From positions 1 through 24,568 of the IMG/VR virus record IMGVR_UViG_3300048033_000561: 24,568 nucleotides of DNA; one strand, 5' to 3'. This document shows positions 7,050 to 23,900 of the stretch, in pieces; positions within the stretch are counted from its first letter, which is position 1, and every line of letters begins with the position of its first letter. The notes beneath the pieces were generated by a model. It made no database searches. It saw nothing but the letters and a program-made list of their open reading frames with translations, and was not told the DNA's origin. A program made the position numbers and the translations under genes. The DNA comes from a virus.

Positions 7050-7496
7050 TTAACCTCCAAACTCGTGACCGGCAACACGCTTCATTTGCCGATTAAATTC
7101 TGCTTGATCTGGCTTTGACTTATAAAGCTTAATAGAAATCTCAGATCGATCTTTCCCTTTGATACGCCAATTATAACCCTTTTCTTTATGCTCAGGGTCT
7201 GTTGTCTTTATAACACGACGTTTATATCCGGCTTCCCATGATTCTGGTTTACCGGTACCTTCTTTAATTTCTGGTTTTTCGTGACCATATCCCATTTTTT
7301 TCATACGTAAATGGTCAGCTTCTTTTTCAGCTTTATAACCTTTACCAGTTTTAGGATCATACATCATATGTGGAGTAAATGCTTTCTTCTCACGCATTGC
7401 ATGAAAATCAGCTTTGCGCTGTTCTTCTTTACCAGCGTTTTTAGACCATCTACCACGTGCACGGTGATACATCTTTTGTAATTCAGTCATCCTCAT
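7050..7496 (-). CDS. Basic protein, unknown function
   Basis: 148 aa, rich in K, E, H and M, with the segment MMYDPKTGKGYKAEKEADHL that I recall from other marine phage proteins. The C-terminal part (EISIKLYKSKPDQAEFNRQM) may form a small alpha/beta unit. The start at 7496 overlaps the polyprotein stop as ATGA; a second ATG at 7490 is also possible but has its GAGG too close. It is translated with the cargo genes on both sides, but has no capsid-targeting-like N-terminus of its own. Confidence 0.72.
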   Translation of the reverse strand: MRMTELQKMYHRARGRWSKNAGKEEQRKADFHAMREKKAFTPHMMYDPKTGKGYKAEKEADHLRMKKMGYGHEKPEIKEGTGKPESWEAGYKRRVIKTTDPEHKEKGYNWRIKGKDRSEISIKLYKSKPDQAEFNRQMKRVAGHEFGG

Positions 7497-8881
7497 GATC
7501 GCACTTTAGCAGCAAGATCTTTGTCTGCTTTGCCCCATGTTCCAGATGATTTAGTAACAAATGAATTAACCCGAGCGAATCCCCATTGCTGTGGAGTTGT
7601 ACCAGGCCGATGACCAGTTTTCCATGCAGCAACACCACGATTATAAACTTGTCTTAGAATTCCAAGGGGCATACCAGATTTTTCAGCTTTTGCTTTTAAA
7701 CCTTTAGTTGCATCTTCGTCTAATGTTTCGTTGTATTCGCTAAATGATTTCATTTCTTCACCGTACATTTGTTGGTATTTTTTAGTATGCTTAGATGGTT
7801 TGGTTTTTGCATCTTTATCGCCAGGTGCTGGTTTATATGCATTAGGATCATCATCGTCCATTTTTGCTTGTTTCTTAAACTGTGCATCTCGTTTAGCTTT
7901 AGTAGATTTAGCAAGACCCTTATGATAATTAGCTGGCTGAGAACCTTTACGATCGCCGATATCAGGATCTTCAGAAGCTTCTTTTGGTACACAATTTGGA
8001 ACTTGTTTACCATTCTTGGTTTTCATTCCAACTTGTTTATGGGTATCCCAACATGCTTCATCAAGTTTTTCGATGTCAGTTAACCACTTACGCATTTTCT
8101 TACCGTCAGCCATTTCGATCAGCACATAGTTAGATCCCAGCATAGAAACCGTTCCGACTTCATCTGATTCCTTAATTGCAACGAGATCTCCTAGTTCAAA
8201 TAATTGTCCTTGAACATAGGCTTCTCGTTCTTCTGACACTGTTTGCAATTGTATGTGCTGACGGTAATCATGGGATTCTTTAAGTCCCATGGCGGTACGC
8301 AAATCATTAAATAATTGCTTACCATCTTTAAAGTTTTTAGGTAGACCTTTAGTGAATAGACTGAAATCATTTGCTTGTGCAGCAGCTCTCATCTTAGAAG
8401 CTGACATTCCAGATACACCTTCTGCATCAGGATCACGCTCACCAGCAGAGATTACATTAACTCCACCTTCAAAGTTATAGAAACCATGACGGCCTTTTTT
8501 AGCATTGTACCTACCAATCAATGCTTCGAACTCATTAACACGATCTGATCCAACAACCATATTGACACGGTTATAACCTTGATCGTATATCTTTACAAGA
8601 ATATCAAATACATTTTTGACAGATTTATCTAATTGAATTGATCGCGCATGACGTGGGAACATCTTGCGCATATACTTAACTTTATTATTATAGTCTAATG
8701 GATTCTTTTTTGCATCGTTAGACTGAGAAGCGAATACCATATATTTAGATCCGCGTGCAACCTTAGCTACAGCGTCTAACAGCTTCTCATGACCTACTGT
8801 AGGAGGATTAAATCTTCCGAAAGTAAAGGTAATTTCTTTTGTGGCTTCAGTGACATACTCACTAAATGACTTGAACGACAT
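7493..8881 (-). CDS. Capsid-targeted polyprotein: nucleotidyltransferase + SH3/KOW-like + DUF5824-like
   Basis: 462 aa with several modules. Residues 1-12 (MSFKSFSEYVTE|A) look like a capsid-targeting sequence. Residues 16-200 are a cytidylyltransferase/NMNAT-like domain with the nucleotide-binding motif FGRFNPPTVGH (H31 of TVGH) and a C-terminal SASKMRAAA motif like the ISxTxxR of that superfamily. Residues about 229-270 resemble a small SH3/KOW barrel. Then come KLDE|ACWDTHKQVGMK, a basic linker, a second internal MKSFSEYNETLDE|DA (377-391), and a C-terminal DUF5824-like segment (VYNRGVAAWKTGHRPGTTPQ...). The LDE|A and LDE|D sites fit the (L/I)xE specificity of T4 gp21 prohead protease. Domain assignment is confident for the nucleotidyltransferase and moderate for the rest. 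Substrate unknown (NMN, CTP-alcohol or other). Confidence 0.85.
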   Translation of the reverse strand: MSFKSFSEYVTEATKEITFTFGRFNPPTVGHEKLLDAVAKVARGSKYMVFASQSNDAKKNPLDYNNKVKYMRKMFPRHARSIQLDKSVKNVFDILVKIYDQGYNRVNMVVGSDRVNEFEALIGRYNAKKGRHGFYNFEGGVNVISAGERDPDAEGVSGMSASKMRAAAQANDFSLFTKGLPKNFKDGKQLFNDLRTAMGLKESHDYRQHIQLQTVSEEREAYVQGQLFELGDLVAIKESDEVGTVSMLGSNYVLIEMADGKKMRKWLTDIEKLDEACWDTHKQVGMKTKNGKQVPNCVPKEASEDPDIGDRKGSQPANYHKGLAKSTKAKRDAQFKKQAKMDDDDPNAYKPAPGDKDAKTKPSKHTKKYQQMYGEEMKSFSEYNETLDEDATKGLKAKAEKSGMPLGILRQVYNRGVAAWKTGHRPGTTPQQWGFARVNSFVTKSSGTWGKADKDLAAKVRS

Positions 8882-14150: not shown

Positions 14151-14837
14151 TTACTCCTGTGTGAAATCTAACAATTTTGGATAGATCTGGCCGATTGCTG
14201 TTGCAATCTCTTTAGCCAGAACCATATGCTCTAGTTGTGTACCATTAGAAGATCTAAGTTCACAATAATGAATCCATGATCTAATAGTACCGTTAACATA
14301 TAAACGAGAAGGTGTATTACCTTCAGGTAAAACAGCCCTTGCTTGTTCTTTAGCAATGCCGTTATCAATTGCCCACTCATAGGCTTGCATAGCAGTGTGC
14401 CAAATATTACGTTGATGTTGTTCCCATTGTACATGAAGGGAAGTATCATCTGTAATTACACTATTCTGTCTATTCTTTAAATCCTGTAGACGTGCTTTAC
14501 GAATTACAACAGAGTTACTAAGATCGCGTATGTCAGCATACCGCTGAGAAAACTCTTGGAAGCTGAAGCTTCTATGACGTAATAGTTGCCTTGCAATGTC
14601 TCGGGTTGTGTTAACTTCGATTGTTGCACTTGCCATTTCGAATGGTGACCAGTGTTTATGTTCGATGAGATAGTCAAGTAACTTTGGAGTTGTCTTGGTG
14701 TTAGCTTGATTTTTCGGGTTTGAGACACGGGCGCAATAAGCGATGAGGTCCTGGATGTTATCCAATCCGTTGTGGTCACGTTCACCTGCATGAATCCTAT
14801 GTGTGAGTTGAGTATGTGCGACTAATTTAGCTTGCAT
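14151..14837 (-). CDS. thyX: Flavin-dependent thymidylate synthase ThyX
   Basis: 228 aa. Makes dTMP from dUMP using methylene-tetrahydrofolate, FAD and NADPH. The signature RHRxxSxNExSxRY is present as RHRSFSFQEFSQRY (residues 87-100); the usual Asn is Gln94. KHWSPFEMAS (61-70) is the conserved HxSPFE segment. A C-terminal RSWIHYCELRSSNGTQLEH segment carries the typical substrate-binding arginine region. It would use dUMP produced by the phage dCMP deaminase. ThyX in place of the T4 ThyA-type td gene is common in marine phages. Confidence 0.95.
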   Translation of the reverse strand: MQAKLVAHTQLTHRIHAGERDHNGLDNIQDLIAYCARVSNPKNQANTKTTPKLLDYLIEHKHWSPFEMASATIEVNTTRDIARQLLRHRSFSFQEFSQRYADIRDLSNSVVIRKARLQDLKNRQNSVITDDTSLHVQWEQHQRNIWHTAMQAYEWAIDNGIAKEQARAVLPEGNTPSRLYVNGTIRSWIHYCELRSSNGTQLEHMVLAKEIATAIGQIYPKLLDFTQE

Positions 14838-16408: not shown

Positions 16409-16709
16409 CATCATTTCCTATCTTATAATTACCACTGTCAAAAGCATCTTCTAAAATGTTTTGCAATACTTTACCTATATAGTCTTGAAAGGCAGGATTC
16501 TCGGCAAGATCTTCATCACCTTCAATTAGCGTCCACATAAAGTTTAGCCTTGCAATACCATCTTCATCATCATTGATTTCTTCAATCTTAGCGCTTACTT
16601 TACCATATTGATACTTAGTACCAGCCCAATCGCCGGTAGTAAGCTCAACAGTATAAAAGTCGTCATCAGCACGTTCAACGAATTTATAATCATTTGTGGT
16701 TACATTATA
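16359..16709 (-). CDS. Unknown acidic protein overlapping uvsX and helicase genes
   Basis: 116 aa if started at GTG 16709, which has GGAG seven bases upstream and overlaps the uvsX stop by five bases. A longer frame from 16760 would sit inside uvsX without a Shine-Dalgarno. The protein begins MYNVTTNDYKFVERADDDFYTVELTTGDWAG-like strands and ends in a very acidic tail. Its 3' end overlaps the helicase start by about 50 bases. I recall similar small proteins beside uvsX in marine T4-like phages. In T4 this slot is gp40, but no resemblance to gp40 (a membrane-associated head-assembly protein) is visible. Confidence 0.72.
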   Translation of the reverse strand, partial: YNVTTNDYKFVERADDDFYTVELTTGDWAGTKYQYGKVSAKIEEINDDEDGIARLNFMWTLIEGDEDLAENPAFQDYIGKVLQNILEDAFDSGNYKIGNDDDSKRTDNDSAEPINQ

Positions 16710-17778
16710 CACTGGTTGTCTCCGATTGTACATCGCTAAATACATCAACATCTTCACCAAGCATTGATTTTAATCCAATGGTATAATGAGACTTAATGTA
16801 TTCTTTGAGATTAGTTTCTGCGAAGATAGGTTCCCAGAACTCTTTAGTCAGTGTTTCTTTCTCACGGCATTTAGGATCTTCAAGGACACCAGTTTCTTGA
16901 TTAACTCTACAATACCATCCATTAGAAGGTTTAGCAACAAAGTTACCATGCATTGCAATATCAAGTAAACCACTGTAACGTTCAATACCACCATCCCATG
17001 TTACAGATACCGGAATCTTAGATTTCTCTTTAACAAAACGTGATTTCTCAACATTGATAATAAAGTTATAACCTTTAATCTCTGTACCAGTCTTTTGTTG
17101 TTGACGACCAAGAATCCAGATGTTATCAGCTGAATAGTAAATACCTGTACCACCACCAACGATATCCTTTGGAAACAAACCAATCTCTTTGTAAGTATGA
17201 TTGATAGCAAGTAAAGGGATATTCTTCATTGTAAGATATGGCGTAACCATACGGAACAAACCTTTGAGTGCTTTTGCACGAGACATATCAGCAACTGATT
17301 TCTCATTAATAGCATCTTCTAATTCTTTCTTAGAAGCAAGGTTACCAATAGAATCGATTACGATAATTACACGATCATCTTTCTCAATAGCTTCAAGTTG
17401 AGATACTAGATCAAACTTAAGCTTTTCAACATCAGTGATAGGTGTATGCAAGATACGTGATGTATCAATGCCAAATGATTCGAAGTATGTTTGAGGTGAA
17501 CCAAACTCTGAATCATAAAATAACATAATAGCATCTTTGTGCTTGTTCATATATGCTGCTGCCATAAGCAAAGCAAATGAAGTCTTAAAGTGCTTTGATG
17601 GACCAGCAAGGACCGTTAGCCCAGAGCCTAGACCACCATCAGGATCGCCTGATAGAGCCACATTAATCATTGGGACTGGCGTACTTGCAAAGTCCTGTTG
17701 TGAGAAGATCTTCGAGTTAGCAAGGATGTCTGTACCCTTGATTTTCGAATTCTTCTTTAGTCTATCCATTACAGACAT
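16705..17778 (-). CDS. uvsX: UvsX, RecA-like recombinase
   Basis: 357 aa, T4 UvsX family. Strand-exchange protein for recombination-dependent replication and repair. Walker A is the unusual GPSKHFKTS (59-67) typical of UvsX, and Walker B is VIIVIDSIGNLAS (137-149). Also present are LFYDSEFGSPQTYFESFGID and the ILGRQQQKTGTEIKGYNF segment. The start has AGGAG seven bases upstream. An early-type promoter lies just upstream, at the end of the 341-aa gene. It begins the uvsX-(small)-helicase-thyX unit. Confidence 0.97.
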   Translation of the reverse strand: MSVMDRLKKNSKIKGTDILANSKIFSQQDFASTPVPMINVALSGDPDGGLGSGLTVLAGPSKHFKTSFALLMAAAYMNKHKDAIMLFYDSEFGSPQTYFESFGIDTSRILHTPITDVEKLKFDLVSQLEAIEKDDRVIIVIDSIGNLASKKELEDAINEKSVADMSRAKALKGLFRMVTPYLTMKNIPLLAINHTYKEIGLFPKDIVGGGTGIYYSADNIWILGRQQQKTGTEIKGYNFIINVEKSRFVKEKSKIPVSVTWDGGIERYSGLLDIAMHGNFVAKPSNGWYCRVNQETGVLEDPKCREKETLTKEFWEPIFAETNLKEYIKSHYTIGLKSMLGEDVDVFSDVQSETTSV

Positions 17779-17807: not shown

Positions 17808-17836
17808 ATTATACCATAAATTCATCGAGTTGTACA
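17808..17836 (-). promoter_or_regulatory. Early-type sigma70 promoter for uvsX
   Basis: Minus strand: -35 TGTACA (17836-17831), 17-base spacer, -10 TATAAT (17813-17808), TGG extension. It overlaps the last codons of the upstream 341-aa gene. Confidence 0.88.
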
Positions 17837-18834
17837 CCCTTTTCTGGCGGTGTACCTTGTCTTTGTTCCCATCCTGATTCCCAGCCTGAAGCATTCATCA
17901 GGTCTGCAGATACGTGATCAAATGTACCATTACCACGAGGTACATAGTTTTGACCAAAGCGAACAAAGTCACACATCACATCTTCAAGGTCTTTTGCTTT
18001 TCCACCGGTACGTTCTACCAGCAGGTTCATAAAGTCGTCTGGTTTCCACCCTGTTGAGAGCCTTTTCATACAGCGGACAGCATTGTTTCCTAAATAGGTA
18101 TGGCTATCTACATTAACATATTGAGGGAAGTAATCAGAGCAATCCATAGAAAAGGCAGCGTACACGAAATTAAATTTTCGGTGGCCTACTTCTTTGTTAT
18201 AGCCATTAAGATAATCAACAATATCTTTATGACCACGGGTTTCCTTTTGTAACCATTCTGTGAAATTATTTATCAAAGTTGGTAATTCACGCGTCATAAA
18301 ATCTACATTAGATGTACCTTTTTTTGGCGCAGGTGGTTGGTTGCCAATGGATGTGAACATTGACTTCCCTTGCTTTTTATTGAATACAAGATCGTTTGCC
18401 ATCTCATCAATAGTTTCAAATCTACCCCAGAATTGTATTACATTATTACGATATCCATGATCATTTTCGAATGACGCACCTGATCCCATAATCCTATGAC
18501 ATAAGAATACATATAACCAGGTTTTTAAATTCCATTGAATAGAATCATTTGATTTGTTAAGTGCACGGCGTTCTTCATTCTGCCATCGCCATTTTGGAGT
18601 CTTAGATCCAAACCATAAGTCTTGAAGTACATTAGAGAAACCAGCAGCATTACGAGTATAGCAATCATATATGTCAATAGTCTGCATTAAAGGATCATTG
18701 ACAGCTTTATCAGCTTCATCACATTTATAATCTAGATTTCCCCAGTTTACATTCTCTTGTAACCATTTAGCACGAGGATAATAGTATTCCGAGAATACAT
18801 CTAAAGCTTCTTCATTCAGCCACTGTTTTTTCAT
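17809..18834 (-). CDS. Possible amino-acid:DNA transferase / aGPT-Pplase-type enzyme in the base-modification cassette
   Basis: 341 aa, mostly helical, with strongly patterned segments likely to be catalytic: YTRNAAGFSNVLQDLWFGSK (59-78), RIMGSGASFENDHGYRN (114-130), IGNQPPAP (163-170), DCSDYFPQYVNVDSHTYLGN (231-250) and GGKAKDLEDVMCDFVRFGQNY (277-297). The last two recall HhH-glycosylase-related proteins called aGPT-pyrophosphorylases or amino-acid:DNA transferases in thymidine-hypermodifying phages, but I cannot confirm membership from memory. The overlap of 23 bases with a PLP-enzyme-like gene and nearness of dCMP hydroxymethylase support a DNA-modification role. Alternative: a nucleotide-metabolism enzyme of an unrelated helical family. 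Function is inference only. Confidence 0.62.
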   Translation of the reverse strand: MKKQWLNEEALDVFSEYYYPRAKWLQENVNWGNLDYKCDEADKAVNDPLMQTIDIYDCYTRNAAGFSNVLQDLWFGSKTPKWRWQNEERRALNKSNDSIQWNLKTWLYVFLCHRIMGSGASFENDHGYRNNVIQFWGRFETIDEMANDLVFNKKQGKSMFTSIGNQPPAPKKGTSNVDFMTRELPTLINNFTEWLQKETRGHKDIVDYLNGYNKEVGHRKFNFVYAAFSMDCSDYFPQYVNVDSHTYLGNNAVRCMKRLSTGWKPDDFMNLLVERTGGKAKDLEDVMCDFVRFGQNYVPRGNGTFDHVSADLMNASGWESGWEQRQGTPPEKGVQLDEFMV

Positions 18835-19717
18835 TCTTCACCCAATCTCTATATGAATCAATTCGATCGTATATAGTTTCATCTTCTAATACAGGTTCCG
18901 CACCTACATTCCAGAACAAGATATCTTTATCACTGTTCTTAGGTATATACTTCCACACCTTACCGTCATATGTATCGATATTAGGGAATGGCGGAAGGTT
19001 TTCTTTTTTCTCTGATGCAGTAAATGCAAGAGGTTCTGATATCGGTTCTGCTACACCAAGTTCACCAGCTTTCATATTGCGTGATACACAAACAGAAGTA
19101 AACTTGGCATTAGGCCAAGCTATTTGAAGTGCCCGTGTGAGCACGCCCGTGGACGTGGCCGTATAGACTTCATCTGGTTCTTCTATATTTTCGTATGCTA
19201 CCTTTACAATACCAGCGGTTACTAATTCATGTTTTAATCCTAACGGAACAAAGAATGCATTAGGATGAGCATCAGCCCACTTCTTCGCAATCAAGTTTAA
19301 GTTAGGCATTGCTGCAATACGATGGAATTCATATTCACATCCACGTTCTATACAGCAGGCCTGATGCATTGATATACGTTTAGAAGAAGGCATGAATAGT
19401 CTTACCTTCTTACCATGTCGCTTTGCTACATCAAGCAGAGAAACACCAGCAAGACCAGTACGAGGTTGAACATAAACAATGGTATCAATATGATCAGGGA
19501 GCGAAGAGATGAGACAATCACCCCCGCGGACTTTGCTACCAACCAAGTCATCATCCCTGACAACCCTAATACCATCATGAACGGTAATACGAGGTACAGG
19601 ATTAGGATCTTCCCAATCATAAGCAAGGTAAAGAAATTCATCTCTAGCATCTTCAGCTGTATATAAAGGTCCGACATCTTTATTCACTCCATCAATTATA
19701 TGTTTATTATGCGCCAA
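18812..19717 (-). CDS. PLP-dependent fold-type-II (tryptophan synthase beta-like) enzyme homologue
   Basis: 301 aa from a TTG start (19717) with GGGGAG nine bases upstream. VRDDDLVGSKVRGG (53-66) resembles the Schiff-base lysine region of ACC-deaminase, threonine dehydratase and cysteine synthase proteins (candidate K62). VYVQPRTGLAGVSLLDVAKRHGKKVRLFMP corresponds to the next strand-helix, but the usual SxGNxG Asn that contacts PLP is absent (PRTGLAG). YTATSTGVLTRAL resembles the phosphate-binding loop. So fold is likely, chemistry uncertain. It overlaps the SGNH-like gene by 11 bases and the 341-aa gene by 23. In thymidine-hypermodifying phages PLP enzymes process amino acids attached to bases, and a parallel role is plausible here. 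Confidence 0.72.
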   Translation of the reverse strand: MAHNKHIIDGVNKDVGPLYTAEDARDEFLYLAYDWEDPNPVPRITVHDGIRVVRDDDLVGSKVRGGDCLISSLPDHIDTIVYVQPRTGLAGVSLLDVAKRHGKKVRLFMPSSKRISMHQACCIERGCEYEFHRIAAMPNLNLIAKKWADAHPNAFFVPLGLKHELVTAGIVKVAYENIEEPDEVYTATSTGVLTRALQIAWPNAKFTSVCVSRNMKAGELGVAEPISEPLAFTASEKKENLPPFPNIDTYDGKVWKYIPKNSDKDILFWNVGAEPVLEDETIYDRIDSYRDWVKNEKTVAE

Positions 19718-20681
19718 GTCCGGTTACTCCCCAATCGTTTCTTCTATAAAATGGCGGAGCAATATGGAAAGAAGATCCATGCTCCATATAGGTTTTAGCA
19801 TATGTTTCAGGATTCATAGTATACCATTCTTCTGGTGGCATAACAACAGATCCAGCTTGTTTGTGCAATTCATCAATAAACCTATTTGTCAAATCATGAC
19901 GTTCTTGCCATGATCCATAGAATGGTTCTTTCTTGTAGAACCCAGATTTAGGTATACGTCTTTCCTCGAACTCAACTGGAACTGGAGCAGCAAAGAATAC
20001 TTTACAATCATACATGGTCTCCAAAGCTTTACCTTGAGTTACATACTCCCGAATAAAGTTTTTAAGAACAAAATCATTGTGTCGTAATATATGATGCCGA
20101 ATATCAATAGAACCCAAACATAAAGTGATTGTACCAAACGGAGTAACTCCTCTGAGGAGAGACCGAATGCCTGCTTTAAGCGCCCCGTGTAAAGTTTTGC
20201 CATCGTTACGAAACACCATATCATTACGGTGGCTAAAAGAGCTTGTATGACTGTCACCAATTGTCATTCCTTTCATTTTAAGATTTTCTTGTTTCATTGA
20301 AGAAACAGAGGACAATCTTGAACTTAGTCGGTCACACCATTCTTCAGTTATGCCTTCGTATGTGGTATTAGCACCAATACGTTTCTTAAGCATTTCGCCA
20401 TAATTCGGCATATCATGATCAAGCGAAATAATATCATTACAAGAAGCAATGAGATTAATACGGTCAAAAACCTCTTTAGTTGCTCCACCAAAAAGATTTA
20501 ATGTTCCACCGAAGTTTGCACCGTGATCAATATAAACCCTATCATATGATTTTACCTTAGGTGTGCACTTATGGTCAATACAAGATCCTAATTGATCTCG
20601 CCATATTTGTGTCCAGCCATGTACATGAGATTTCTCATTAACAGGTATATTAGATATTGGATTTGTAATCACAGAATTCAT
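19707..20681 (-). CDS. SGNH/GDSL-like hydrolase or acyltransferase
   Basis: 324 aa from the ATG at 20681 (GGAG six bases upstream); a longer frame from 20702 is less likely. GMTIGDSHTSSF (near residue 140-150) matches SGNH block I, CLGSIDIRHH resembles the block III strand, and SSFHIAPPF near the C-terminus carries a possible catalytic His. The N-terminal 100 residues (YIDHGANFGGTLNLFGG..., SLDHDMPNYGEML) are of unknown fold. SGNH proteins remove or transfer acyl groups; in this neighbourhood it may act on a modified base or a precursor. It overlaps the dCMP deaminase by 32 bases. Confidence 0.68.
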   Translation of the reverse strand: MNSVITNPISNIPVNEKSHVHGWTQIWRDQLGSCIDHKCTPKVKSYDRVYIDHGANFGGTLNLFGGATKEVFDRINLIASCNDIISLDHDMPNYGEMLKKRIGANTTYEGITEEWCDRLSSRLSSVSSMKQENLKMKGMTIGDSHTSSFSHRNDMVFRNDGKTLHGALKAGIRSLLRGVTPFGTITLCLGSIDIRHHILRHNDFVLKNFIREYVTQGKALETMYDCKVFFAAPVPVEFEERRIPKSGFYKKEPFYGSWQERHDLTNRFIDELHKQAGSVVMPPEEWYTMNPETYAKTYMEHGSSFHIAPPFYRRNDWGVTGLGA

Positions 20682-21129
20682 ATTCAACTCCAGCTTCTTC
20701 AAATATTGATTTGCTTAATGCCCAAGAATCTTGCCAATTAGCAGGTATCTCTTGAGAGGGCATTACTATTTTTTTGATTCCTACTTGGACGATGCCTTTA
20801 GCACAATCAGAACAGACAGGAAGACCAAACACAAATAAAGTTGATCCATGTAAAGATACTCCGTTATATGTAGCATTGTAGATGACATTCATCTCAGCAT
20901 GTACTACTAGTTTATATTTAGTGGGTCGATCATTATATCGATCCTCGGAGTCATTAACTCCACGTGGGAAACCATTGTAGCCTTGAGATAAGATTTGGCC
21001 TTTATCTCCAACTGCAACAGATCCTATTTTACTTGAAGGATCTTTAGACCAACTTGCTACTTGTTCAGCAAGTTCTAAGTATCTATTGTTCCATTTATTT
21101 GACAAGATCGAAATGCCTTTCATAGACAT
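20650..21129 (-). CDS. cd: dCMP deaminase
   Basis: 159 aa. Zinc-dependent conversion of dCMP to dUMP, feeding ThyX. The zinc site is clear: HAE (H77, E79) and PVCSDCAKGI (C106, C109). SKDPSSKIGSVAV and QGYNGFPRGVND are typical of phage and bacterial dCMP deaminases. The N-terminus overlaps the hydroxymethylase gene by 35 bases. The chosen ATG (21129) has AGGTAA upstream; a start six bases later or at a TTG near 21103 cannot be excluded. Deamination competes with hydroxymethylation for dCMP, so both enzymes together set the ratio of dT to hydroxymethyl-dC. Confidence 0.93.
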   Translation of the reverse strand: MSMKGISILSNKWNNRYLELAEQVASWSKDPSSKIGSVAVGDKGQILSQGYNGFPRGVNDSEDRYNDRPTKYKLVVHAEMNVIYNATYNGVSLHGSTLFVFGLPVCSDCAKGIVQVGIKKIVMPSQEIPANWQDSWALSKSIFEEAGVEYEFCDYKSNI

Positions 21130-21787
21130 GTAAGTTCATTACCTGCCATGTTAGCATACCTTTTTCAATAGGTGCTTTTTCATGCACATAAGCTAGTGCA
21201 TTGTAATCATCTACAACTTTATCCATAAGATGTTGGGCCCAAGCATAATCGTTCTTATAACCGAATACTACATCATTAGAACGCATTTGCGATACCATAT
21301 GTAATACATTATCACGAATATAAAATGTTTGAGCATTCGTACAAATGAAATCAGACTTACCATTCTCATCGAATTCAGTCCAGATAGATGGACGATTGTA
21401 TACCATCTGAGCACGACGAGAATCAGGGTTTTGCCATAGTTCTTCTAGTGCACGCTCATATTGAGAATAATACTTTTCTGAAAATACTAAATGACCATAG
21501 TTAGAATTAATATTGCCATCATCATCTGATGCATATTGCCATGCTACAGGTGGTTGTCTACCTGGACCATAAATATCAAGGATATTAGTAGAACGTGACT
21601 CATACCATTTAATCTCTGCATCGATGTATTCTTGTACTGGTGTGCCGAAGATAGCAGGTTCGCTTGCAATAAAGTTTGCACCAATCATTTCGATAGTCTT
21701 TTGACCAGTCTTATCGATAGTAAATGCTTCATCAGCAAGTTCACCGATGAAGAACTCTCGAATATCTTTTACACTATACATTAGCAT
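21095..21787 (-). CDS. 42: dCMP hydroxymethylase (T4 gp42-like)
   Basis: 230 aa (T4 gp42 is 246), thymidylate-synthase superfamily. Similarity to T4 gp42 is evident throughout: DKTGQKTIEMIGANF, INSNYG, QNPDSRRAQMVYNRPS, SDFICTNAQ with the nucleophile C149, MRSNDVVFGYKNDYAW, and LHVYERHF. D180 in KNDYAW replaces the Asn that selects dUMP in thymidylate synthases and matches the T4 residue that selects dCMP. It makes hydroxymethyl-dCMP, so phage DNA probably carries 5-hydroxymethylcytosine or a derivative. GGAG seven bases before the ATG; TAATG overlap with the preceding gene. Confidence 0.94.
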   Translation of the reverse strand: MLMYSVKDIREFFIGELADEAFTIDKTGQKTIEMIGANFIASEPAIFGTPVQEYIDAEIKWYESRSTNILDIYGPGRQPPVAWQYASDDDGNINSNYGHLVFSEKYYSQYERALEELWQNPDSRRAQMVYNRPSIWTEFDENGKSDFICTNAQTFYIRDNVLHMVSQMRSNDVVFGYKNDYAWAQHLMDKVVDDYNALAYVHEKAPIEKGMLTWQVMNLHVYERHFDLVK

Positions 21788-22104
21788 TACTCATCTCCTA
21801 CTTCATAGCGATCATCCATATGAATATGGCCATCAGACATATGAGTCATAAGAATCATAAGCTGAGTAGATGCATGTGCAAGATGGCTTAGGCCAGATTC
21901 AGGATCTAGATCTTCACCAGACCAGAATGCATTTAAGTGACGTTGAATAGATGAGTATGTACGAGACCACTCAGTGCTATCGCCATCATCACGCCAGTTA
22001 TTAGGACCATACTTGTTAGCACCGAAGCCGAGTACTTCAGCAACCTGATTGATAGCATCGACAGGAACTAAAGCTAAAGGGGCTTTGCCATTATCATATT
22101 TCAT
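21787..22104 (-). CDS. DUF5664 / dATP-dGTP diphosphohydrolase N-terminal-like protein
   Basis: 105 aa. The pattern KYDNGKAPLALVPVDAI...VLGFGANKYGPNNWRD...WSRTYSSIQRHLNAFWSGEDLDPESGLSHLAHASTQLMILM is the phage family I know as DUF5664, related to MazG-like all-alpha nucleotide pyrophosphohydrolases (the S-2L MazZ type). It probably hydrolyses a dNTP or a modified dNTP precursor. It is the first gene of the unit with dCMP hydroxymethylase, driven by the promoter at 22134. Substrate unknown. Confidence 0.85.
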   Translation of the reverse strand: MKYDNGKAPLALVPVDAINQVAEVLGFGANKYGPNNWRDDGDSTEWSRTYSSIQRHLNAFWSGEDLDPESGLSHLAHASTQLMILMTHMSDGHIHMDDRYEVGDE

Positions 22105-22564: not shown

Positions 22565-23487
22565 AATTGATTCTCCATAATATATGATATTGCACGTTCA
22601 GCTTCAGTGTCAAACGCTCTATTTTTGTACCATCCGCCAGTATCTCGATCGAGCTCTTGACACATCATCACCAATTCTTGTGACGTGATGGGATATTTTT
22701 TACTTACTGCATTACCAGCTACGGATACCATAAATGAATACATTTTGGCATACCAACCAGTCTCACTAATTGCATTGTATTCAGCAATCATTCTACGACT
22801 TACGAATGGGCAATCAGTATATGAAGTCCATGAGTAGTTTGTATTAGTTAAACCATTTGCTCTATATTGCATGATAGCCTGCTTCATTGATTCGGGCATA
22901 CCGTCAAATATAGTCTTGGCTTTCTCAGGCATAGGATGCCTGCTTATAAGGAGCATAGGATCGATATGATTACCAGGATTACTGAATATAAAGTTGTTAG
23001 CGTTATTATACGTCGCTGGAATGTAATACATTCTAGATAAGTCTTTAGTCTGCTTATCTCCGATTGATCCGAGCTCGCTATTGAGTGCCCACCAAAATCT
23101 TTTGATATCAGCCACTGCAACCTCTGATGTAAGTGGGAAGACAAGCCTGAACTTCGGTTTTTCCAGCGTACTACTAGCAGTACTATAGCAAACGTAACAG
23201 AAATCTCCAAAGCTAGTACGTAGTTCATTTTCTAAATCTCCTTTAAAATCATGGTCATCAACATCTACTGCAGCCCATCCACCCCAACCAGTTACATTTT
23301 TATTAGCACGCGTTGTGCCTTTAATGTAACTAGCAGGGGAGATAAGTTGGGCTGACTTTTTATCCTCTAATTTTTGCTTAGACAGTTCATACAACAAAGC
23401 CTCGAACTGTTGCCAATTCGAGAACTCCATAGACTTTTCAGTCTTATTGTCGTATATACTTTTAAACAGCGTTAGGGAAGTCACCAT
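22561..23487 (-). CDS. Archaeo-eukaryotic primase (AEP)-like protein
   Basis: 308 aa. Visible AEP-type motifs in order: DxD-like AAVDVDDHD (D75, D77, D78), a strand YSTASST (101-107) at the place of the usual STHSS motif, KFRLVFPL (112-119), and DLSRMYYIPA (149-158). This arrangement is that of small phage and plasmid primase-polymerases, with the catalytic-motif His replaced by Ala. A helical domain follows (about 190-308). It may prime replication or initiate it, which is notable because no gp61-type primase lies beside the helicase gene. AGGA precedes the ATG; it overlaps the MazG-like gene by 26 bases. Confidence 0.74.
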   Translation of the reverse strand: MVTSLTLFKSIYDNKTEKSMEFSNWQQFEALLYELSKQKLEDKKSAQLISPASYIKGTTRANKNVTGWGGWAAVDVDDHDFKGDLENELRTSFGDFCYVCYSTASSTLEKPKFRLVFPLTSEVAVADIKRFWWALNSELGSIGDKQTKDLSRMYYIPATYNNANNFIFSNPGNHIDPMLLISRHPMPEKAKTIFDGMPESMKQAIMQYRANGLTNTNYSWTSYTDCPFVSRRMIAEYNAISETGWYAKMYSFMVSVAGNAVSKKYPITSQELVMMCQELDRDTGGWYKNRAFDTEAERAISYIMENQL

Positions 23488-23872
23488 GGTTTCCTTCGTG
23501 TGTAGGTGATGTCCACCCTTCTGGTTTCATTAGATCTGGTAAACCCCATGGGTTTGGCCGCTCTTCTTTAACACCAGGTTCTTTTGCCATATTAGCTTGA
23601 TATACACGGTTCCATGCTTCATTAGCATCAACACCAAATACATCAAGTGTACCAATAGCAAATACACACATATCAATAAGACCATCAACGATCTCTTCTG
23701 AATCACCGGCATTCATTGCATCGAATGTTTCGGTTACTTCTTCTTGACACATATCTAATCGAAATTTAAGGTATTTCTTCATTAGATCTTTATCATCTTT
23801 GTTCTTTTTGAACCAATCCTTTACACCAAACTTGTGATGCATCATGTGGATATCATGTGCCCAATCTGTCAT
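23462..23872 (-). CDS. MazG-like nucleotide pyrophosphohydrolase (all-alpha NTP-PPase)
   Basis: 136 aa from the ATG at 23872 (GGAG six bases upstream); a longer frame from 23884 would leave almost no leader after the promoter. Acidic metal-binding pattern CQEEVTET (E48, E49 and E52 in the longer numbering) and EEIVDGLIDMCVFAIG (D67, D71) fit the MazG/dCTPase/dUTPase all-alpha superfamily, and WNRVYQANMAKEPG is the typical closing helix. In a hydroxymethyl-dCTP-using phage, a dCTP pyrophosphatase is needed to keep plain dC out of DNA (T4 gp56), so dCTP is a plausible substrate by inference. Confidence 0.85.
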   Translation of the reverse strand: MTDWAHDIHMMHHKFGVKDWFKKNKDDKDLMKKYLKFRLDMCQEEVTETFDAMNAGDSEEIVDGLIDMCVFAIGTLDVFGVDANEAWNRVYQANMAKEPGVKEERPNPWGLPDLMKPEGWTSPTHEGNHGDFPNAV

Positions 23873-23900
23873 GTCTTTCTCCATTTTCTATTATGTTATA

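Follow-up and report, generated by a model that had tools for sequence, protein, structure and literature searches.

Described systems and the locus under study

Amino-acid-based hypermodification of phage DNA with the participation of a PLP enzyme is already known for thymine, and to our knowledge amino-acid-derived bases in phage DNA have been established for thymine only. In Pseudomonas phage M6, gp52 serves as the PLP enzyme in the pathway to 5-(2-aminoethyl)uridine DNA and is reported to be a decarboxylase. According to Lee et al. in NAR, PLP-dependent decarboxylases reportedly act in this type of pathway on amino acids installed on the base. The gene neighbours in Bordetella phage CN2 and M6 comprise ADDT, a radical SAM protein, 5-hmdU kinase, HMUDK_hel, Nmad5 and a hydroxymethylase, and a PLP enzyme has been listed in the M6-like thymidine hypermodification cassette (PMC9476957). 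In phage T4, the gene order of the corresponding replication cluster is 41-40-uvsX-(segA)-b-gt-42.

The window, that is, the whole stretch of DNA analysed here, was a virus record of 24.6 kb. The following genes were central to the analysis:

16705 to 17778, minus strand: UvsX recombinase, the syntenic anchor (T4 uvsX adjoins b-gt and 42)
17809 to 18834, minus strand: 341-aa all-helical partner protein, predicted AGOG/PUGT-like fold, ADDT-like by comparison of the predicted structure
18812 to 19717, minus strand: 301-aa fold-type-II PLP enzyme of the M6 gp52/phrog_7093 family, as predicted from fold and profile matches
19707 to 20702, minus strand: 331-aa partner protein, phrog_13881, possible divergent T4 beta-glucosyltransferase-like transferase (weak similarity and context)
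20650 to 21129, minus strand: dCMP deaminase (Pfam PF00383)
21095 to 21787, minus strand: dCMP hydroxymethylase of the T4 gp42 type with the catalytic Asp present (PDB 1b49, E 2.4e-96)

The order in the window was helicase, small ORF, uvsX, 341, PLP, 331, dCMP deaminase and hydroxymethylase. Since b-gt lies between uvsX and 42 in T4, the cassette occupies the b-gt position. The locus shares with that of T4 both the place in the replication cluster and the enzyme for the hydroxymethylcytosine precursor, whereas three genes, one of them for a PLP enzyme, stand instead of b-gt. Among 10 large relatives and records, none yielded a T4-type AGT, and sub-threshold BGT matches came from one contig alone, the strongest of these falling within the 331 gene.

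The GxxND motif with its diagnostic Asp was invariant in 20 hydroxymethylase sequences. A 5-hmdU pathway in the window was ruled out, the hydroxymethylase being of the dCMP type with Asp. An ORF at 14151-14837, separate from the hydroxymethylase, was recognised by eye as what we take to be ThyX-like. The base modified here is most likely hydroxymethylcytosine, a point absent from the initial annotation, as are the two partner proteins. On balance, we favour the reading that the PLP enzyme would perform the M6 gp52-family step in a post-replicative hypermodification of the phage's own DNA, on 5hmC.

Other nucleotide-related genes were observed in the window. A short protein of the dATP/dGTP diphosphohydrolase type (PF18909) is encoded at 21787-22104, adjoining the hydroxymethylase, and may clear unmodified dNTPs together with a MazG-like protein at 23462-23884. 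In addition, a 462-aa ORF at 7493-8881 opens with a nucleotidyltransferase-like motif (FGRFNPPTVGHEKLL).

The 301-aa protein: fold, kinship and active site

The coding part of the PLP gene spans 18815-19717 on the minus strand (301 aa), with the stop codon at 18812-18814. The TTG start named by the initial annotation was present; it is kept in most of the closest relatives and is replaced by ATG at the same spot in others. Relatives of the gene were found in 94 IMG/VR loci in one scan. The ORF is real and far from chance; a chance ORF or a pseudogene was ruled out by the conservation in many loci and by the conserved active site.

The AlphaFold2 model of the 301-aa protein, built on a 70-sequence alignment, had a pLDDT of 91.9 and a pTM of 0.89. 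The nearest folds were those of D-cysteine desulfhydrase and an ACC deaminase homologue (Foldseek E 1e-10; VIA Z about 22-22.9), with 256 residues superposed at an rmsd of 3.3-3.8 in the Foldseek and VIA comparisons. Searches of the PDB with single sequences gave chance matches only. The model thus assigns the protein with confidence to the fold-type-II PLP fold, as had been proposed from the sequence; the Z of 22.9 to D-cysteine desulfhydrase / ACC deaminase bears this out. Compared with these closest solved folds, the 301-aa protein is shorter, shares about 16% identity with them, and lies in a different genetic setting.

The direct match of the 301-aa protein to Pfam PALP was 19.8 bits, under the 35-bit cut-off, while relatives exceeded this cut-off with 46 and 40 bits. 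The match to phrog_7093 ('threonine dehydratase') had an E of 9e-30; this name is annotation only, and the gene context argues against a metabolic role. Furthermore, the family aligned with M6 gp52 at an hhalign probability of 98.5 and an E of 3e-15 over 216 columns, and the reverse HMM check gave an E of 8e-14. The alignment revealed a common signature of SK-x-RG, PFP-x4-YD-x-K-x-W and FWN. By these profile comparisons, the 301-aa protein is a distant homologue of M6 gp52, with about 22% identity. Both belong to the fold-type-II family, carry the SKxRG lysine and a loop without Asn, and are encoded in a hypermodification cassette with a hydroxymethylase.

Residue conservation was counted over 72 members of the PLP family, and equivalences were taken from profile alignments to E. 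coli DcyD and CysK, whose scores were weak but which agreed with the fold and with each other, shuffled controls being far lower. The predicted active-site elements were as follows:

19532 to 19534, minus strand: codon of K62, predicted PLP Schiff-base lysine (GSKVRG), 72/72, aligned with DcyD K51
19445 to 19465, minus strand: PRTGLAG, codons 85-91, the Asn-loop without Asn (L89 at the Asn position)
19133 to 19156, minus strand: TSTGVLTR, codons 188-195, predicted phosphate-binding loop, G191 72/72, aligned with DcyD SGSAGTHAG
18959 to 18970, minus strand: YDGK, codons 250-253, predicted N1 contact, 72/72, Y250/D251 on DcyD Y287/T288

The GSKVRG motif and the STG-type phosphate loop had been named in the initial annotation, and both could be placed on DcyD: K62 matched the PLP lysine of GGNKLRKLE, and ATSTGV at 187-192 aligned with ASGSAGT. 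The protein is predicted to bind PLP through a Schiff base to K62. PRTGLAG fell on CysK PTSGNTG, with L89 at the place of Asn. The lack of the usual Asn had been named in the initial annotation. The observation is true, but it applies to the whole family, M6 gp52 included, and does not set this protein apart: position 89 was L33/G35/K2/Y1/A1 and Asn in 0/72 members, so that its absence characterises the family and is not a lesion. The SGNTG substrate loop of CysK is thus absent from the 301-aa protein and from all 72 members. A degraded PLP enzyme that had lost its Asn was ruled out, because the Asn is absent family-wide and the other active-site residues are all kept.

At the pyridine nitrogen, Thr288 of DcyD is the counterpart of the contacting Glu of ACC deaminase, and in DcyD it is Thr315, a Leu in ACC deaminase, that makes this contact (PMC3344862). 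The PLP family had Asp at the former position and Val or Ile at the latter. Y250/D251 occupied the place of ACC deaminase Tyr294/Glu295, with Tyr and an acidic residue kept in 72/72. The 301-aa protein hence resembles ACC deaminase in having an acidic residue at the Glu295 position and, in place of Thr315, a hydrophobic one; D251 is predicted to make an acidic contact at the pyridine nitrogen as in ACC deaminase.

The loss of the usual Asn would be consistent with a PLP-fold scaffold that has no catalytic function and aids the 341-aa or 331-aa protein or positions DNA, and so would the case of the Erythrobacter phages, in which a DNA methyltransferase carries a homologous domain within its sequence. 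K62, R64, Y250, D251, K253, W269 and N270 were nevertheless invariant (72/72), which goes beyond the needs of a scaffold, and we regard such a role as very improbable.

Another alternative is action on a free metabolite. The PLP enzyme would then convert, for instance, serine, cysteine or an activated amino acid into a building block such as an amine or an aminoacrylate-derived group, for transfer to hydroxymethylcytosine by the 331-aa or the 341-aa protein. Small free amino acids are the normal substrates of fold-type-II enzymes, and the closest folds are those of D-cysteine desulfhydrase and ACC deaminase. However, the substrate-carboxylate loop is altered throughout the family. Ser78 of DcyD is a loop residue tied to specificity (PMC3344862), and this residue and Asn79 are replaced by G88 and L89 in the 301-aa protein. 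Moreover, homologues are tied to DNA-acting partners in three unrelated contexts. A free substrate is therefore unlikely in our judgement, and catalysis on the modified base of DNA remains the preferred reading.

Further homologues of the PLP enzyme were also observed elsewhere. One distant branch (L168-L247, e.g. L168:410-2625 and L002:7384-9702) immediately follows a ParB/Srx-like protein and an N4/N6-type DNA methyltransferase (SPPY...YSDDP); this ParB-MTase-PLP trio recurs in about 80 diverse phage contigs, and we know of no function for it. In Erythrobacter phages ZS04 and R6L (L003:2326-4764 and L001), the PLP domain is inserted in the methyltransferase between the SAM-binding and SCPPY motifs, with a PAPS-reductase-like gene near the fusion. 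The PLP homologue of a phage-like contig (L093:1790-5964) adjoins a PAPS-reductase-like protein and a methyltransferase with the YSDDP motif.

Gene coupling and the two partner proteins

The PLP gene overlaps its upstream gene (19707-20702) by 11 bp and its downstream gene (17809-18834) by 23 bp, in keeping with the tight overlaps from which a tie to the neighbours had been proposed. This coupling holds across loci. Among the 118 T4-like loci in which the PLP gene was flanked by 1.5 kb or more on each side, the 331 gene was at most 200 bp away in 114, the 341 gene was within 1.5 kb in 115, and a hydroxymethylase was present in 108. The 331, 341 and PLP genes shared one strand in all loci compared (187/187), with their order shuffled among lineages.

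The 331 family showed an hhalign E of 2e-4 to T4 beta-glucosyltransferase over 48 columns, the best of 20 shuffles reaching 0.02. One member matched PF09198 with 18 bits, below the cut-off, and a PDB profile search with the family gave no match. An SGNH hydrolase, considered because of a GDSH motif, was without Pfam or PDB support, and the beta-glucosyltransferase-like assignment was favoured over it, though weak. In Aeromonas phage 25 (L095:3776-7047), the 331 homologue (phrog_13881) adjoins UDP-galactopyranose mutase. In Aeromonas phage 31 (L094:6007-8394), phrog_13881 forms a fusion with a long C-terminal region, which matches the 5-hmdU-kinase helical domain weakly. Since each of the two phages has a gp42-type hydroxymethylase, modification of cytosine may occur in them as well. 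Beside the marine cassette, UDP-glucose dehydrogenase was found in 37/213 loci and an epimerase in 23/213. The cassette is directly followed by UDP-glucose dehydrogenase and a sugar-nucleotide epimerase in several lineages of marine phages (e.g. L033:7895-9675). The weak BGT similarity, the Aeromonas context and the sugar genes together favour a glycosyltransferase, and the 331-aa protein is possibly a divergent beta-glucosyltransferase. Given that some cassettes have sugar genes as neighbours, the substituent may consist of sugar in part or as a whole.

The same observations (the similarity of the 331 family to the T4 enzyme, the two sugar-nucleotide genes and the mutase of Aeromonas phage 25) would fit a pathway that is mainly one of sugars: hydroxymethylcytosine would be glycosylated by the 331-aa protein, and the sugar thus attached, or its uronic acid, would be the substrate for amination or trimming by the PLP protein. 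Sugar aminotransferases, however, are of fold type I, the M6 gp52 pathway is one of amino acids rather than sugars, and most loci had no sugar genes within the stretch read. We consider such a pathway improbable, and an amino-acid-based modification of 5hmC is preferred.

The model of the 341-aa protein was helical with a pLDDT of 87. Its nearest solved folds were AGOG glycosylases (Z 10.2) and PUGT (8z2n, Z 9.6); for a helical protein, a Z of about 10 is a modest score. The model also matched predicted structures of viral proteins that bear the name amino acid:DNA transferase (BFVD ADDT) with an E of 1e-13, whereas a sequence-level match to ADDT was not obtained. Likewise, no sequence link was found between the 341-aa protein and M6 gp51, CN2 ADDT, HMUDK_hel or the C-terminal half of the Aeromonas phage 31 protein. 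The helical glycosylase-like fold is thus comparable with that of PUGT (5-PmdU glycinyltransferase gp46 of phage PaMx11), while sequence similarity to PUGT or ADDT was not detectable and the 341-aa protein is linked to hmC rather than hmU. In one set of lineages, an extra protein of about 324 aa was observed between the 341-aa and PLP genes, at L086:2103-3074, L318:5605-6591 and 43 other loci; it carries FSHRLHW and RHARxDLFQIYYPK, and profile comparison hints at a distant kinship with the 341 family.

Proposed modification of cytosine

By analogy, we infer the following order of steps, substrate and final base structure. The phage would make 5-hydroxymethyl-dCMP, as suggested by its gp42 homologue, and incorporate it into DNA, after which the two partner proteins would elaborate the hydroxymethyl group. 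Loading of this group is probably the task of the 331-aa protein as a transferase, and the 341-aa protein probably flips the base out and attaches or exchanges the substituent. The PLP enzyme, through its Schiff base with K62, would then work on an alpha-amino acid carried by the base. The carboxylate of this amino acid would most likely be removed to give an amine, the reaction that is reported for M6 gp52. An Asp at the pyridine nitrogen and the loss of the usual loop Asn/Ser would suit decarboxylation better than beta-elimination on a free amino acid. A DNA-attached amino acid had been offered as an example of a substrate in the initial annotation; this suggestion is plausible in view of the homology to M6 gp52, which belongs to a pathway for a thymine derived from an amino acid.

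The two pathways differ in several respects. The hydroxymethylase is of the dUMP type in M6 and of the dCMP type in the window, and the radical SAM protein and 5-hmdU kinase of the M6 cassette are replaced by the 331-aa and 341-aa proteins. No match to 5-hmdU kinase (PF18748) above the cut-off was obtained in 8 large relatives, which may be fragments. No radical SAM gene was found in the conserved cassette; such genes were found elsewhere in 5/8 large contigs. As the M6 radical SAM protein and kinase are not in the cassette, an alpha-amino acid on the base must arise by another route. Two contigs of marine phage (G007 63959-76582 and G004 61430-68178, behind L071 and L284) carried clusters of radical SAM genes, 4 to 8 in number, in stretches of up to about 13 kb.

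The virus group with this cassette is frequent in ocean metagenomes, with more than 575 matches to the 341-aa partner in one scan. A broader proposal, made tentatively, is that abundant marine T4-like phages may have replaced b-gt by a transferase, a helical base-flipping transferase and a PLP enzyme, which would convert 5hmC to an amine-bearing base derived from an amino acid and perhaps a sugar. In the limited open-access literature searched, no description was found of a PLP enzyme linked to a dCMP hydroxymethylase, of such a cassette in the b-gt position, or of these partner proteins. The absence of Asn together with an Asp at N1 provides a testable prediction on fold-type-II catalysis on a macromolecule. 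A PLP enzyme tied to a dCMP hydroxymethylase would extend amino-acid-base chemistry from thymine to cytosine and, if true, would be the first PLP chemistry on cytosine in DNA. It is probable that the cytosines of a large group of ocean viruses carry a decoration not yet described, and the cassette bears on the escape of marine phages from restriction and CRISPR.
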